A DNA stretch of 64,000 nucleotides from Terriglobales bacterium (GTDB taxonomy: Bacteria; Acidobacteriota; Terriglobia; Terriglobales; Acidobacteriaceae): contig JAICSO010000008.1 of NCBI GenBank assembly GCA_025936825.1, forward strand, positions 124,001 through 188,000, read 5' to 3'. The notes under the pieces are model-generated. The model was not told the DNA's origin, searched no databases, and was given only the letters and a program-made list of their open reading frames with translations. A program made the position numbers and the translations under genes. Below are positions 4,515 to 33,213 of the stretch, in pieces. The stretch's first letter is position 1. Every line of letters begins with the position of its first letter.

Positions 4515-4738
4515 TTCGCGCCGGTCTCCTGGCTTGCGAGTAAGGATGTCAGACGTGGAGGACGGGCGCCCTCGCCCGTCCGGCCGAGCGAAGCTCGGCA
4601 GTCTAGAACATTCCACTTTGCCCCGGCCCTTCCCGGATTTCTCCAGTGGCCCGAGGCGATGTCCTCGCTTACAGTTGCGCGGCAGCGCGGGATTTGCACC
4701 CGCTTCCCTGTCCTTGTGCGTGCGACGTACTCCTCGTC
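4515..4738 (-). promoter_or_regulatory. Cobalamin riboswitch
   Basis: Read on the minus strand, the region has the conserved parts of an adenosylcobalamin/cobalamin riboswitch in order: AGGGAAGCGGGTGCAAATCC near 4709, then GCGCAACTGTAAGCGAGGAC, GCCACTGGAGAAATCCGGGA, and the B12 box GCCAGGAGACCGGC at 4520-4533. It sits between a strong promoter (4774-4803) and the TonB receptor. Unusually, the peripheral segment before the B12 box holds two palindromes (4561-4580 and 4583-4599) that belong to the dispersed repeat family of this genome. Confidence 0.93.
4561..4599. repeat. Palindromic repeat pair inserted in the riboswitch
   Basis: GACGGGCGCCCTCGCCCGTC (4561-4580) is followed by GCCGAGCGAAGCTCGGC (4583-4599). 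The first matches repeats at 26340-26360, 27655-27675 and 36795-36822 and the ligA insert; the second matches the GAGC-TTCG-GCTC type hairpins next to the RAYT gene and at 26204-26219. Confidence 0.8.
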
Positions 4739-15020: not shown

Positions 15021-15464
15021 ATGGACCCCGAAAGTGGCCCGCAAATCCGGCCCAGAGTCTTAGGCTTAGATGTCGGTTCGCGCACTATCGGTATGGCAGT
15101 TTCTGATCCACTCTGGATTACCGCGCAGGGCCTCGAAACCATCCGTCGTGAGAACAAGCGCAAGGACTTTGCCAAGCTCGCGGACGTCATCGTCGAGTAC
15201 CAGGTGGCGGAAATCGTGGTGGGATACCCTTTGCGCCTGAGCGGGGCTGAGGGAACTCAGTCAGAGAAAATGCAGGTTTTTGCGGAGGAGTTGCGCAAGC
15301 ATTTCAAACTCCCGGTGCACCTCTGGGATGAACGCTTAACCACTAGCCAGGCGCAGCGATTGTTGAAGGAAGCCGAAGTCTCGATTGAGAAGCGGGGCAA
15401 AGCGGTGGACCGCATGGCGGCGACTCTGATTCTGCAGAGTTGGATGGAAGCACAGGGGAGCTAG
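15021..15464 (+). CDS. ruvX: Putative pre-16S rRNA nuclease / Holliday junction resolvase-like protein
   Basis: YqgF/RuvX has an RNase H-like fold and in E. coli takes part in 5' processing of 16S rRNA. The 147-residue protein shows the family pattern: VLGLDVGSRTIGMAVSDP with the catalytic Asp, EIVVGYPLRLSG, the Glu of LWDERLTTSQAQR, and KAVDRMAATLILQSWM with the last Asp. The ATG at 15021 was chosen because the conserved domain begins about 17 residues later; the upstream frame is antisense to the permease gene. ruvX is commonly followed by mltG; here two extra genes lie between them. Confidence 0.94.
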   Translation: MDPESGPQIRPRVLGLDVGSRTIGMAVSDPLWITAQGLETIRRENKRKDFAKLADVIVEYQVAEIVVGYPLRLSGAEGTQSEKMQVFAEELRKHFKLPVHLWDERLTTSQAQRLLKEAEVSIEKRGKAVDRMAATLILQSWMEAQGS

Positions 15465-15716
15465 TCGCCGATGGTTCGGTCTTCGGCGGTCGCTTTTATG
15501 CTGGACCTACGGGGTACCGCCAGAGATTCATTTCGGGAACTTACCGAACTTGCATTCTCAGTTCCTGAGTCTTTAGATTCTTGACGTTTCTGCCTAACAA
15601 CCCGTCAGTCCCCAACCGATGCAGTCTAGCGTAGAGCGGCAGGAAGCCACAGGCTCAGCCAACGCATACCTTCGTAACACTCGGCACTGATTCGGAACTC
15701 TATGCTGAGGCTATCT

Positions 15717-16658
15717 ATGAAGAGGCACCGCATCATTCTTTCTCTGATCACGGTGGACAACGATTTCCAATTGGAGCAGGCGGCGTCCGCCGAAGAGGCG
15801 GCGCGCCACTTGGGAGTGGACGTAGAGGTCCTATTCGCCAATGGGGACAGCATCGAGCAGAGCCAACAGGTGCTTCGATTTGTGCAGGCCAAATCCAGCG
15901 AGCGCCCGGATGGAATTATCTTTGAGCCGGTTGGCGGACCGGCTCTGGCTGTGGCGGCGCGAGCGGCGGTGGATGCCGGAATCGGTTGGGTGGTACTCAA
16001 CAAGCAGGTGGAATACGTAAAAGAGTTGCGGCAACAACTGAAGGTCCCGGTTTTTTCGGTCACAAGTGATCATATGGAAATGGGGCGGATTCAGGGGTAT
16101 CAACTCGCGGCGCTGTTGCCAGAGGGTGGTTCAATTTTGTCGATTGAAGGACCGGCCGAAAGCGATGCATGCAAGCTGCGAGTGGTGGGACTGGCTGAAA
16201 CTAAGCCGGCAAATATTCGAATCAAAACCATGCGGGCAAGTTGGACGGAGTCCAGTGCGTTGAAGACTCTGAACTCATGGCTGCAACTTTCCACCTCGCG
16301 GCATGAACCCATCGTCGCGGTGGCGGCGCAGAATGATGCCATGGCGATGGGCGCGAAGACAGCGTTCGAAGAATTGACCCGGGACTCCGGCGGTGGTCGC
16401 TACTGGCACGAACTGCCCTTCCTGGGCATGGACGGCGTTCCGACAACGGGACAGGCATGGGTGAAAGCGCATTTGATGGCTGCTACCATTGTCGCTCCGC
16501 CGCCGTCTGGAACGGCAGTGGAGGTTCTTGTCGGCGCGCTACGAACGGGAGAAATTGCTCCCGAGACTACCGTGCTGGTCCCATATTCCTTCCCACCTTT
16601 GCCGGCCATCAAACCAATTAACGGGAAGCGGCGAATGGCGACTGTTGGGCATATGTAG
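15717..16658 (+). CDS. Sugar-binding-like protein (periplasmic-binding-protein fold, no signal peptide)
   Basis: A 313-residue protein with the fold of ribose-type ABC binding proteins (Peripla_BP_4): a first lobe with DNDFQLEQAASAEEAARHLG and PDGIIFEPVGGPALAVAARA, a hinge GSILSIEGPAESDACKLRVVG, and a second lobe with AVAAQNDAMAMGAKTAFEEL and PFLGMDGVP. It has no signal peptide or lipobox, and no DNA-binding domain like LacI, so it is expected in the cytoplasm. ATG 15717 has GAGG seven bases upstream. No transporter genes are near. It may be a cytoplasmic ligand sensor; this is inference. Confidence 0.8.
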   Translation: MKRHRIILSLITVDNDFQLEQAASAEEAARHLGVDVEVLFANGDSIEQSQQVLRFVQAKSSERPDGIIFEPVGGPALAVAARAAVDAGIGWVVLNKQVEYVKELRQQLKVPVFSVTSDHMEMGRIQGYQLAALLPEGGSILSIEGPAESDACKLRVVGLAETKPANIRIKTMRASWTESSALKTLNSWLQLSTSRHEPIVAVAAQNDAMAMGAKTAFEELTRDSGGGRYWHELPFLGMDGVPTTGQAWVKAHLMAATIVAPPPSGTAVEVLVGALRTGEIAPETTVLVPYSFPPLPAIKPINGKRRMATVGHM

Positions 16659-16700
16659 GGACAGCCGCCTCGGCTGTCCGGGCGAGCAGAGCTCGCCAGA
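16656..16700. repeat. REP-like palindrome pair, inverted orientation
   Basis: GGACAGCCGCCTCGGCTGTC is followed by GGGCGAGCAGAGCTCGCC. It is the same two-hairpin unit as 16781-16830 but on the other strand. Confidence 0.75.
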
Positions 16701-16780
16701 TTTCCCAATGCGGGAGACTGAGTAAAAACAGATGACAATTTTGCGGGGCCCGCAGTGAGTAATGCGAATAGACTGGCCCT

Positions 16781-16830
16781 GCGGAGCTTCGCTCCGCCCG
16801 ACAGCCGGGGGCGGCTGTCGCTACACGGAC
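16781..16830. repeat. REP-like unit, left copy
   Basis: A 17-bp hairpin GCGGAGCTTCGCTCCGC is followed by CGACAGCCGGGGGCGGCTGT and CGCTACACGGAC. It ends four bases before the transposase start. Confidence 0.85.
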
Positions 16831-16834
16831 ATTT

Positions 16835-17314
16835 ATGAGGGTAACGCGGCGCGGATTTTACCGACGACGGCTGCCGCATCTGCAGCGCGACTACAAGCCA
16901 CACTTCGTTACATTTTGTACTTACCAGCGATGGATTCTGCCGGAACTCGCACGAGACATCGTGCTGGAGTGCTGTCTGCACGACCACCAAGTCACGATGA
17001 CTCTGCATGCTTGTGTCGTGATGCCGGATCACGTGCATTTGATTTTCACCCCGAGAGTGGATGAGGAGCGAGGAGAGATTTTCTCATTGGCCAGAATAAT
17101 GGACGCAATTAAAGGAGCTTCCGCGCACAAGATGAATAAGGCTTTGGGAAGAGAAGGCCGTGTCTGGCAAAGCGAGTCGTTCGACCGTGTGGTGCGATCG
17201 TCGGAGAGTCTCGATGCAAAGGTAGCTTATGTTCTGGCAAATCCCGTTCGTGCTGGTCTGGCTGGCGTGAGCGGGGAGTACCGTTGGTTATGGCGAAGGG
17301 GAGGTTTGGAGTAA
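16835..17314 (+). CDS. REP-associated tyrosine transposase (RAYT, Y1 HUH family)
   Basis: RAYTs are single-domain Y1 transposases related to IS200/IS605 that cut and move REP/REPIN hairpins. The 159-residue protein has the HUH metal motif in MPDHVHLIF (His66, His68), WQSESFDRVV, and the catalytic tyrosine in AKVAYVLANPVRAGL (Tyr132). An upstream FVTFCTYQR strand is also typical. It has normal length and no frameshift, so it may be active. It is flanked on both sides by near-identical palindromes, and the same hairpins are scattered through the window, including within genes. Confidence 0.93.
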   Translation: MRVTRRGFYRRRLPHLQRDYKPHFVTFCTYQRWILPELARDIVLECCLHDHQVTMTLHACVVMPDHVHLIFTPRVDEERGEIFSLARIMDAIKGASAHKMNKALGREGRVWQSESFDRVVRSSESLDAKVAYVLANPVRAGLAGVSGEYRWLWRRGGLE

Positions 17315-17323
17315 CAGAGAACT

Positions 17324-17450
17324 GCGGAGCTTCGCTCCGCCCGACAGCCGAGGGCGGCTGTCGCTACACGGACAATTCCTGACAGCCAAGCGCGGCTGTT
17401 GCTACATGAACAATCCTGACAGCCGAGGGCGGCGTCTCTACATGTCGTAG
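17324..17450. repeat. REP-like cluster, right copies
   Basis: One complete unit (17324-17373) differs from the left unit by one base; two shorter GACAGCC...GGCTGT(T) copies follow near 17380-17410 and 17420-17445. Confidence 0.85.
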
Positions 17451-17498
17451 CACTTTGGTAAACCAGCCTAGGCGCGGACCTCCTCTAAACTAGGCAGA

Positions 17499-26045: not shown

Positions 26046-26109
26046 AATGAAAGGGAGGCGTTCACGTTGCCGCCTCCCCGATGACCTCAGGGGGTAAAGC
26101 CCTGGGTTG

Positions 26110-26365
26110 TTGTTGACCTTTTCGGCACGACTGAAGTCGCGCCCTCCCGAGCCTTTCGGCACGACTAAACTCGTGCTTTCCCGGAAACAGCGCGCTTTTC
26201 TGCCGAGTTTCGCTCGGCCTGGACAGCCGAGGGCGGCTGTCCCTACGCGTGCTCGGCAGACACTCGAGCGCGGCTGTCCCTACGCGTGCTGCGCCGGATC
26301 CGTTCGACGCCCTCGCTTCGCTCAGTCGCTCAGGGCAGGCTAGGCGAGGGCGCCCGTCCCTCCAT
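26110..26365. repeat. Cluster of REP-like palindromes between hsp20 and clpB
   Basis: In order: TTCGGCACGACTGAAGTCG near 26121, a related TTCGGCACGACTAAACTCG near 26155, GCCGAGTTTCGCTCGGC (26203-26219), GGACAGCCGAGGGCGGCTGT (26221-26240), a second GCGGCTGTCCCTACGCGTGC (26270-26289), and GCGAGGGCGCCCGTCCCTCC (26343-26362). The same four modules occur inside dus and the methyltransferase. Confidence 0.85.
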
Positions 26366-31795: not shown

Positions 31796-33213
31796 ATGGC
31801 TGCGACTGGCGCCACCAGCCGTTGTTCGAAAAAATTTTCCACTCGCGAGAGGATTTCGGGTGCTGCCTTGGACTCGTAAATTTCTTTGCGCAGGGCGGCG
31901 CCGCCGGGAACGCCGTGCGTGAACCATGAGGCGAACTGCTTCATTTTGCCGGTCGCGTCGGGCAGTTCTTCTTCGATCAGCATTTGAAAGTAAGTACGGA
32001 TCATTTGGTAGCGGTCGGCTTCGGAGGGGTGCTCGTAAAGCGCTCCGCGAGCGGCTTCGCCCGCGCAATCCGCCCCGAACTCAGGTCTTCGGGAGGGCAC
32101 GACTTCAGTGGTGCCGCTAGAACTCCCAAGTGGGACCGGGGCTTTAGCCCCAGAAGCCACCGCGGCTAAAGCCGCGTCACTAAATTCATCGTTTCCGGCA
32201 CGGCTGAAGCCGTGCCCTCCCGTCGGAACATCCGGAAAGGTGGCAGCGCCCATTCGACTCCCTCCGGGTCGGTCGCTCAGGACAACCTCGGGCCTTCGGC
32301 CCGATGGACAGCCGAGGGCGGCTGTCCCTACGCGAATCTTTTCGCAATACTGTTCAATTTGGCGGAAGATCCAGGGATTCGCTGGCGCGGTGCGACCAAT
32401 CATGACGGCGTCACACCCGGTTGCGGCCACCATGGCGCAGGCGTCTTCTGGAGTGCGGATGTCGCCGTTACCAATGACGGGAATCTTTACCGCGTCTTTC
32501 ACCGCCGCGATCCATTCCCAGCGCGCGTTTCCGCTGTAACCCTGCTCGCGGGTGCGGGCGTGCAGAGCGACCGCGCACAAACCGCAGTCCTCCGCCATCT
32601 TCGCCAGTTCGACGCAGACGATCTCTTCGTCGTTCCAGCCTGCGCGGAACTTCACCGTGAAGGGAGTCTTCACGGCAGTACGCACGGCCTTGAAGATTTC
32701 GCCGATACGCGGCAGATCGCGCAGCAGTCCTGAGCCGCCGTTACACTTCACGACTTTTTTCGCCGGACATCCGAGATTCAAGTCCACCAGATCAAAACCA
32801 AGGTCCTCGACGATTCGCGCGGCGTCCGCCATAACCTTGGGATCACTGCCGAACAGCTGCGCGGAGATCGGGTGCTCGTCTTCATAAAAATGAAGGTAGC
32901 GTTTGGCCTTCCTATCTTTGGCGCGGAGCACACCGTCGGCCGAGGTGAACTCGGTCATGATCAGGCCGCAGCCACCAAGATTGCGAATGAAGCGGCGGAA
33001 GACGGTGTCGGTGACACCGGCCATGGGCGCGAGAACGGTGGCGGGGGAGATAGTGACTGAACCGATCTGAAGCGAACCGGGAACCGGGACTTGCGCTGCT
33101 CGCGCCGGTGGGACTGCGGGTTGCGACAGGGCCTCGAAGCCAGCATTTACAGCATTGTCACAGCAATTGCTGGGTGCCGCAGGCTTCGGCGCATTGTCCC
33201 AAAACTTCTTCAC
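31792..33213 (-). CDS. tRNA-dihydrouridine synthase with a ~100-residue repeat insertion
   Basis: Dus enzymes reduce uridines to dihydrouridine in tRNA with FMN and NADPH. The TIM barrel shows VLAPMAGVTDTVFRRFI, DLNLGCPAKKVVKCNGGSGL with the catalytic Cys, FTVKFRAGWN, ALHARTREQGYSG and GNGDIRTPEDA. It is most like the DusB group. At 473 residues it is about 100 too long: residues 293-392, between WIFRQIEQYCEK and EHPSEADRYQMI, do not resemble Dus and are encoded by at least four REP-like palindromes in frame. The GTG start gives an N-terminal extension of about 45 residues before the barrel. Confidence 0.93.
   Translation of the reverse strand: MKKFWDNAPKPAAPSNCCDNAVNAGFEALSQPAVPPARAAQVPVPGSLQIGSVTISPATVLAPMAGVTDTVFRRFIRNLGGCGLIMTEFTSADGVLRAKDRKAKRYLHFYEDEHPISAQLFGSDPKVMADAARIVEDLGFDLVDLNLGCPAKKVVKCNGGSGLLRDLPRIGEIFKAVRTAVKTPFTVKFRAGWNDEEIVCVELAKMAEDCGLCAVALHARTREQGYSGNARWEWIAAVKDAVKIPVIGNGDIRTPEDACAMVAATGCDAVMIGRTAPANPWIFRQIEQYCEKIRVGTAALGCPSGRRPEVVLSDRPGGSRMGAATFPDVPTGGHGFSRAGNDEFSDAALAAVASGAKAPVPLGSSSGTTEVVPSRRPEFGADCAGEAARGALYEHPSEADRYQMIRTYFQMLIEEELPDATGKMKQFASWFTHGVPGGAALRKEIYESKAAPEILSRVENFFEQRLVAPVAAI
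32085..32335. repeat. Block of REP-like palindromes inside dus
   Basis: Includes GGGGCTTTAGCCCC (32139-32152), GCGGCTAAAGCCGC (32162-32175), GGCACGGCTGAAGCCGTGCC (32198-32217), GGGCCTTCGGCCC (32290-32302) and GGACAGCCGAGGGCGGCTGT (32306-32325) followed by CCCTACGCG. The third and last match the 26110-26365 cluster. Confidence 0.88.

Follow-up and report, generated by a model that had tools for sequence, protein, structure and literature searches.

A probable RAYT REPtron with two-hairpin GTAG REPs and REPINs of unlike arms in an acidobacterial genome

The closest described systems to the locus reported here are the REPtrons, in which a RAYT (TnpAREP) gene is associated with GTAG REPs (PMC2817692, 2010; PMC3733652, 2013; PMC6006769, 2018; PMC8266576, 2021). 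Like it, they consist of a gene for a Y1 HUH protein, one per REP type, with a palindrome on either side, and of further, dispersed copies of the palindrome; the foot is GT[AG]G and the stems co-vary. What sets the acidobacterial unit apart from the published GTAG REPs is an additional hairpin, distal to the REP hairpin, whose sequence varies in a compensatory manner. REPINs (PMC3116915, 2011) are also comparable, being formed by two inverted REPs with conserved ends and a divergent spacer with compensatory changes, at spacings of ~70-110 bp as against ~104-118 nt in all for the acidobacterial REPINs. In the former the spacer pairing spans the whole REPIN, whereas in the latter each arm carries a separate, local hairpin that always differs from that of the other arm. 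Within the Acidobacteriota, terminal inverted repeats (TIRs), some of them described as 'double palindromic', have been reported on either side of RAYT-like genes (TIRYT; PMC3733652). Going by the description in that source, Koribacter versatilis TIRYT ORF 1552 (PMC3733652, Fig. 9) shares with our locus an acidobacterial Y1 gene, a repeat family made up of its flanking inverted repeats and TIRs of which some are double palindromic; the two loci may represent one kind of element. In the literature searched, where the TIRs of that figure enter the comparison by description only, we found no report of a constant REP combined with a variable second hairpin.

The locus lies in a window of 64,000 nucleotides (C97:124001-188000) from the 6.54 Mb assembly of a soil acidobacterium of the Terriglobales. 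We consider it probable (roughly 0.8) that it is a REPtron of the RAYT/TnpAREP kind, which moves GTAG-tagged REPs built on a hairpin termed B. A second hairpin, A, is never the same in the two arms of a REPIN. The gene (16835-17314, plus strand) is an intact open reading frame of 159 residues with an HVH motif at residues 66-68, a catalytic tyrosine at position 132 and a W111-Q112..D117-R118..R121 signature. It matches the Pfam Y1_Tnp domain (1.1e-7) and scores 88.5 bits against the NCBIfam model for REP-associated tyrosine transposases, NF047646 REP_Tyr_transpos (cutoff 80), and 31.2 against the IS200 model NF033573, which is below its cutoff of 55. A PDB search recovered a single weak match, TnpAREP (4er8), which is thus the nearest solved protein. 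H66, H68 and Tyr132, as well as W111, D117 and R121, are kept across an alignment of 27 RAYTs, and the intact Y1 transposase with HUH and tyrosine motifs that the sequence-only reading had described is accordingly upheld. The W-Q..D-R..R positions have been tied to GTAG recognition, with the aspartate typical of subclasses 2.5 and 2.7 (PMC6006769). Our protein has the GTAG-contact residues W, Q, D, R and R at the positions given for these subclasses, and thereby shows the residues that contact GTAG in E. coli. When related RAYTs were compared by eye, no clear correlation was seen between histidine or arginine at position 118 and a GTAG or GTGG foot. The nearest named relatives come from acidobacterial MAGs, of which two bear the label Candidatus Sulfotelmatobacter.

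This RAYT is present in one copy, and is the only Y1 gene found in the genome with such flanking hairpins; three other Y1 genes are ~30% identical to it and have no GTAG-B hairpins. The locus combines a Y1 HUH protein with an HxH motif and one tyrosine, a score that favors RAYT over IS200, GT[AG]G-footed flanks and dispersed cognate palindromes, as is typical of RAYTs. Several copies of the gene and its ends as a mobile unit, the mark of the IS200/IS605 elements, were not found. In its gene and likely chemistry the locus is normal, and it is the repeat that is the variant part.

The order of elements is an upstream REPIN, the RAYT, one downstream unit and then two decayed units. The left arm of the REPIN (16655-16697, plus strand), which was absent from the earlier note and was also found by a generic search, begins with a GTAG foot (16655-16658) followed by hairpin B (16659-16679) and hairpin A (GGCGAGC-AGA-GCTCGCC, 16681-16697); its DNA fold yields both hairpins (z = -6.1). 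The right arm (16781-16824, minus strand; z = -4.7) is in the opposite orientation and completes the REPIN, with A (GCGGAGC-TTC-GCTCCGC) at 16781-16797, B (CGACAGCCGGGGGCGGCTGTCG) at 16799-16820 and a CTAC at 16821-16824 that is the GTAG foot of the minus strand. The downstream unit (17324-17367, minus strand; z = -5.8), with A at 17324-17340, B at 17342-17363 and the foot at 17364-17367, is near-identical to this right arm. The claim that 50-bp units at 16781-16830 and 17324-17373 differ at one base and enclose the RAYT frame proved correct, and the near-identical repeat extends to 56 nt (16779-16834 and 17322-17377, with 54 of 56 positions matching). Beyond it lie two decayed B-only minus-strand units without an A hairpin, namely 17380-17405 (TGACAGCCAAGCGCGGCTGTTG plus CTAC) and 17416-17442 (GACAGCCGAGGGCGGCGTCTCTACA), which reach the conserved promoter-like block of mltG (CTTTGGTAAACCAG..CTCTAAACTA). 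A separate observation concerns the left edge of the locus, where the TAG stop of a periplasmic-binding-protein gene (15702-16658) sits within the GTAG foot of the left unit (16650-16658 region); a REP insertion may have set the C-terminal end of this protein.

The direct-repeat arrangement raises the possibility of joint movement of the RAYT and one unit as an IS200-like element, with the units 16781-16824 and 17324-17367 arising by insertion of a circle of unit and gene at the GTAG of a unit already in place. In favor of this scheme, hairpin A and 54 of 56 positions are common to both flanks even though A varies between units elsewhere, and the same direct-repeat layout recurs at L026/L033, L041, L043 and L056. 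Nevertheless, the flanks differ in L027, the genome has one RAYT copy of this type, the IS200 model scores below its cutoff and transposition of whole REPtrons is reported not to occur (PMC6006769). We therefore regard joint movement of gene and unit as improbable.

The notion that the element interrupts the usual ruvX-mltG neighborhood stands in part. In the congeners G151 and G092 ruvX and mltG are separated by a gap of ~110 bp, and in several other genera they are nearly adjacent. However, the Peripla_BP_4 (periplasmic/sugar-binding-protein) gene at 15702-16658 also lies here, between ruvX and the RAYT, and in four further congeners (G126, G150, G027 and G146) unrelated genes occupy the interval; these comprise a PIG-L-like deacetylase, an amidohydrolase and a ribulose-phosphate epimerase, identities that were read from sequence rather than from a family search. 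Hence, ruvX-mltG is a variable interval and not one broken by the RAYT alone. Together with the loci L062, L063, L066 and L076, the interval 15464-17498 seems to be a place where genes have turned over repeatedly, beside the conserved mltG promoter block.

The repeats themselves are GTAG-tagged REPs: on the strand opposite to CTAC each unit opens with GTAG, by which the GTAG REP superfamily is tagged (PMC3733652). This tetranucleotide is followed by hairpin B, usually a single base, and then hairpin A, which has a 7-bp stem and a 3-base loop. Hairpin B, which adjoins the GTAG, is almost invariant (GACAGCC..GGCTGTC, closed by a C-G or G-C pair), while hairpin A varies in sequence by compensatory changes and keeps its shape. 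Folding as single-stranded DNA yields exactly hairpins A and B (z -4.7 to -6.1). Among 19 aligned units, changes on both sides of the helix were observed at nine pairs (6 of the 7 in helix A and 3 of the 8 in helix B), and 98.2% of cells were paired as compared to 87.0% in shuffles, none of the 500 shuffles being as high. Across 1.15 Mb of the genome nearly every 7-bp, 3-nt-loop hairpin of the GAGCnnnGCTC type adjoins a B-type hairpin, which indicates that A is part of the unit. The alternative that hairpin A is a pre-existing target site was rejected, as no lone GAGCnnnGCTC-type hairpins were found at non-REP intergenic sites in this 1.15 Mb. Mapping hairpin A on the RAYT tree gave no support for a single origin (7 changes with automatic labels, the detector having missed A in L028 and L032).

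Related hairpins had been noticed elsewhere in the window, and indeed 10 pattern matches were found there against 0.02 expected. Those discussed include two minus-strand units, 26202-26278 (A 26202-26218, B 26221-26242, a CTAC foot and then a decayed B copy at 26259-26278) and 32288-32331 (A TCGGGCC-TTC-GGCCCGA at 32288-32304, B 32306-32327 and a CTAC foot). A third, on the plus strand at 4555-4602 (C97:128555-128602), belongs to a sister subfamily, with GGACGGGCGAGGGCGCCCGTCC as its B and GCCGAGC..GCTCGGC as its A. The genome-wide count that had been called for gave 21 to ~35 units in ~6.5 Mb, the higher figure coming from a pattern search that allowed up to 3 mismatches, and none with a reversed control pattern. 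In the 1.15 Mb of own sequence and a few other stretches there are 50 B-like cores, 29 of them with an A hairpin, the looser B-only matches in this set including some chance ones. The two sister subfamilies are GACAGCC and GACGGGC. Most dispersed units are of the G-closed type (GGACAGCC..GGCTGTCC), to which the left unit 16655-16697 also belongs, and the two near-identical RAYT flanks are of a rarer C-closed type with ~5 copies. Single units and pairs both occur in the sampled part of the genome, where all seven close pairs face outward, as the inverted REPs of REPINs do; REPINs were also aligned in congeners and found across the family. One doublet (C140:65154-65250) has a GACGGGC arm and a GACAGCC arm, and so unites both sister subfamilies. 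Other palindromes in the window (26100-26180 and 32130-32225) and at L002 and L003, namely GGCACGACTGAAGTCGTGCC, CCCGGGGCGTGAGCCCCGGG and GTCGGACAAGAATGTCCGAC, look like separate repeat families.

Units of this kind could instead be host elements under selection, such as terminators, RNA stabilizers or protein-binding sites, with the RAYT as an incidental neighbor. Their strong hairpins would fit such a role, as would their placement, since at least 11 of 23 sampled units fall outside ORFs that were called generously and cover 88.5% of the sequence (p = 1.7e-5), a conservative count given that the gene caller over-calls ORFs. On the other hand, the units are patchy across congeners and tightly associated with RAYT genes, and the stems beside these genes change along with them. 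Furthermore, an Rfam search of the locus returned no family match, and the one orthologous site tested is not occupied in most congeners (see below). A host-element origin is thus very unlikely.

The new part lies in the asymmetry of the REPINs. In this genome and its congeners, the two A hairpins of one REPIN always differ, so that its ends are distinguishable, and usually exactly one of them is GTCGAGC..GCTCGAC (here alpha). A family-wide search for exact B arms, read on both strands, gave 29 REPINs from several genera, of which 25 have one alpha arm, 4 have none and none has two, with A arms transcribed by hand and near-matches scored as alpha. No 7-nt A stem occurs in both arms of any of the 29. 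Under random pairing 5.3 alpha-alpha pairs would be expected, with a probability of 4.6e-5 for none. This figure overstates the strength of the result in view of the manual scoring and because the 29 REPINs share descent and two of them (in G248 and G366) look orthologous; the p-values given here in general overstate independence, as REPIN copies are related by descent. No REPIN with two exact GACGGGC arms was found in 32 genomes. An asymmetric doublet is known from the E. coli BIMEs, which pair different REP motifs, Y and Z. The composition of the E. coli REPtron with these motifs has been described (PMC6006769). In BIMEs it is the REP palindrome itself that differs, whereas in the acidobacterial REPINs B is the same in both arms and A differs. 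Doublet asymmetry as such has a precedent in these BIMEs and in the compensatory spacer changes of published REPINs (PMC3116915).

The cheapest explanation of unlike arms is descent from one asymmetric ancestor, and the data do not separate the alternatives, in which a long perfect palindrome is avoided or the ends are labelled. Hairpin A might accordingly mark the ends of the REPIN as different, or stop it from becoming one long perfect palindrome. A stronger proposal, which we regard as doubtful, is that the REPINs are functionally asymmetric, with A serving as a sequence label (alpha) at one end and as a label of shape alone at the other, like the left and right ends of IS200/IS605 elements, and with RAYT-mediated movement requiring one of each.

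Turnover of the units was followed at the REPIN C97:73194-73305, whose two neighboring genes are syntenic in congeners. In the orthologous interval a full REPIN is present in this genome and in G150, a remnant in G126 and another REP type in G027 and G146, while nothing similar to the REPIN was found in that interval in G092, G151 and G152. The units are therefore polymorphic at an orthologous site. The REPIN in G150 (C447:3498-3612, L231) has GTGG feet, its A hairpins are swapped relative to C97:73194-73305 and its best alignment is in reverse, which could reflect either an inversion between the B repeats or an independent insertion.

Across the family, 41 of 150 genomes have a RAYT at E 1e-20, and at least three units are present in 21 of these 41 as against 12 of the 109 other genomes (p = 5.7e-7). 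Nearly all family RAYTs have flanking hairpins with a GT[AG]G foot, and compensatory changes distinguish the stems from one RAYT to another, examples being GGGCAGACG..CGTCTGCCC in L026, CGACGGGCG..CGCCCGTCG in L043 and, on a GTGG foot, GGACAGCC in L027. These changing stems agree with the published coevolution of RAYTs and REPs (PMC2817692, PMC8266576). In other genera, long hairpins with a foot of the GGGTGGC type (e.g. CCACTCAAGCC..GGCTTGAGTGG) flank distant Y1 genes at L153, L167 and L169 and constitute a different hairpin class.

Whether the RAYT at 16835-17314, or a sister, spreads the hairpins is a claim that fares unevenly. The gene-repeat association, the single intact RAYT, its cognate flanks and the site polymorphism speak for it, but repeats also exist without a cognate RAYT, and the C-closed flanks are of the rarer type. 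Genomes that lack such a RAYT and carry as many elements, which the sequence-only reading had named as telling against it, do in part exist. At least three units occur in 12 RAYT-negative genomes, among them G059 (98% complete, 18 units), in which no related Y1 gene was detected at E 1e-5. The congener G027 (97% complete) has 13 units by pattern count and no RAYT flanked by a GACAGCC hairpin; it, G126 (8 units) and G150 keep GACAGCC units, with their own RAYTs flanked by other hairpins. Distant Y1 genes as hidden sources in RAYT-negative genomes were rejected for those inspected, as their hairpins differ. RAYT turnover with surviving repeats explains G027 and G059, and the general mechanism is left standing because REPtron loss with surviving REPs has been reported for E. 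coli, according to work cited in PMC3733652. These exceptions do lower the claim that this particular RAYT itself made the present copies. In another genome without a cognate RAYT, tandem B-only units with a 38-nt period were observed (G011:C25:30685-30889).

It is accordingly a real possibility, at somewhat under even odds, that most of the dispersed units were left behind by sister RAYTs since lost, and that the RAYT of the window, domesticated or recently acquired, only shares their hairpin code and at present moves few or none of them. The RAYT-free genomes with many units and the congeners with non-cognate RAYTs point this way, as does the prevalence of G-closed copies over the C-closed type of the near-identical flanks. 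So do the spacers between REPIN arms, which are not conserved, suggesting that the copies are not very young. Against it stand the intact single RAYT with exact cognate flanks, the G-closed left unit 16655-16697, the RAYT-unit association across the family and the full REPIN where three congeners have an empty site. Taken together, these observations make the 16835-17314 RAYT the best present-day candidate source, although much of the unit family is probably older than this gene or owes its spread to sister RAYTs since lost.

If the locus is a REPtron of the proposed kind, its RAYT, as a Y1 HUH single-strand endonuclease, would most likely recognize the GTAG and hairpin B in single-stranded DNA (the lagging-strand template). 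It would then cut at the foot and rejoin the strand, and REP doublets (REPINs of ~104-118 nt with feet outward) would reach new intergenic sites by copying or relocation. The mechanism by which RAYTs mobilize REPs is not settled, and the left and right ends of a palindromic doublet are a gap in the model. A constant REP hairpin joined to a variable second hairpin allows features of sequence that the enzyme may recognize to be told apart from features of shape, and the units with constant B and variable A provide natural variants for cleavage assays. In the genomes of this family, gains and losses of both RAYT and repeats are seen on one tree, which offers a direct test of whether the repeats outlive their transposase.
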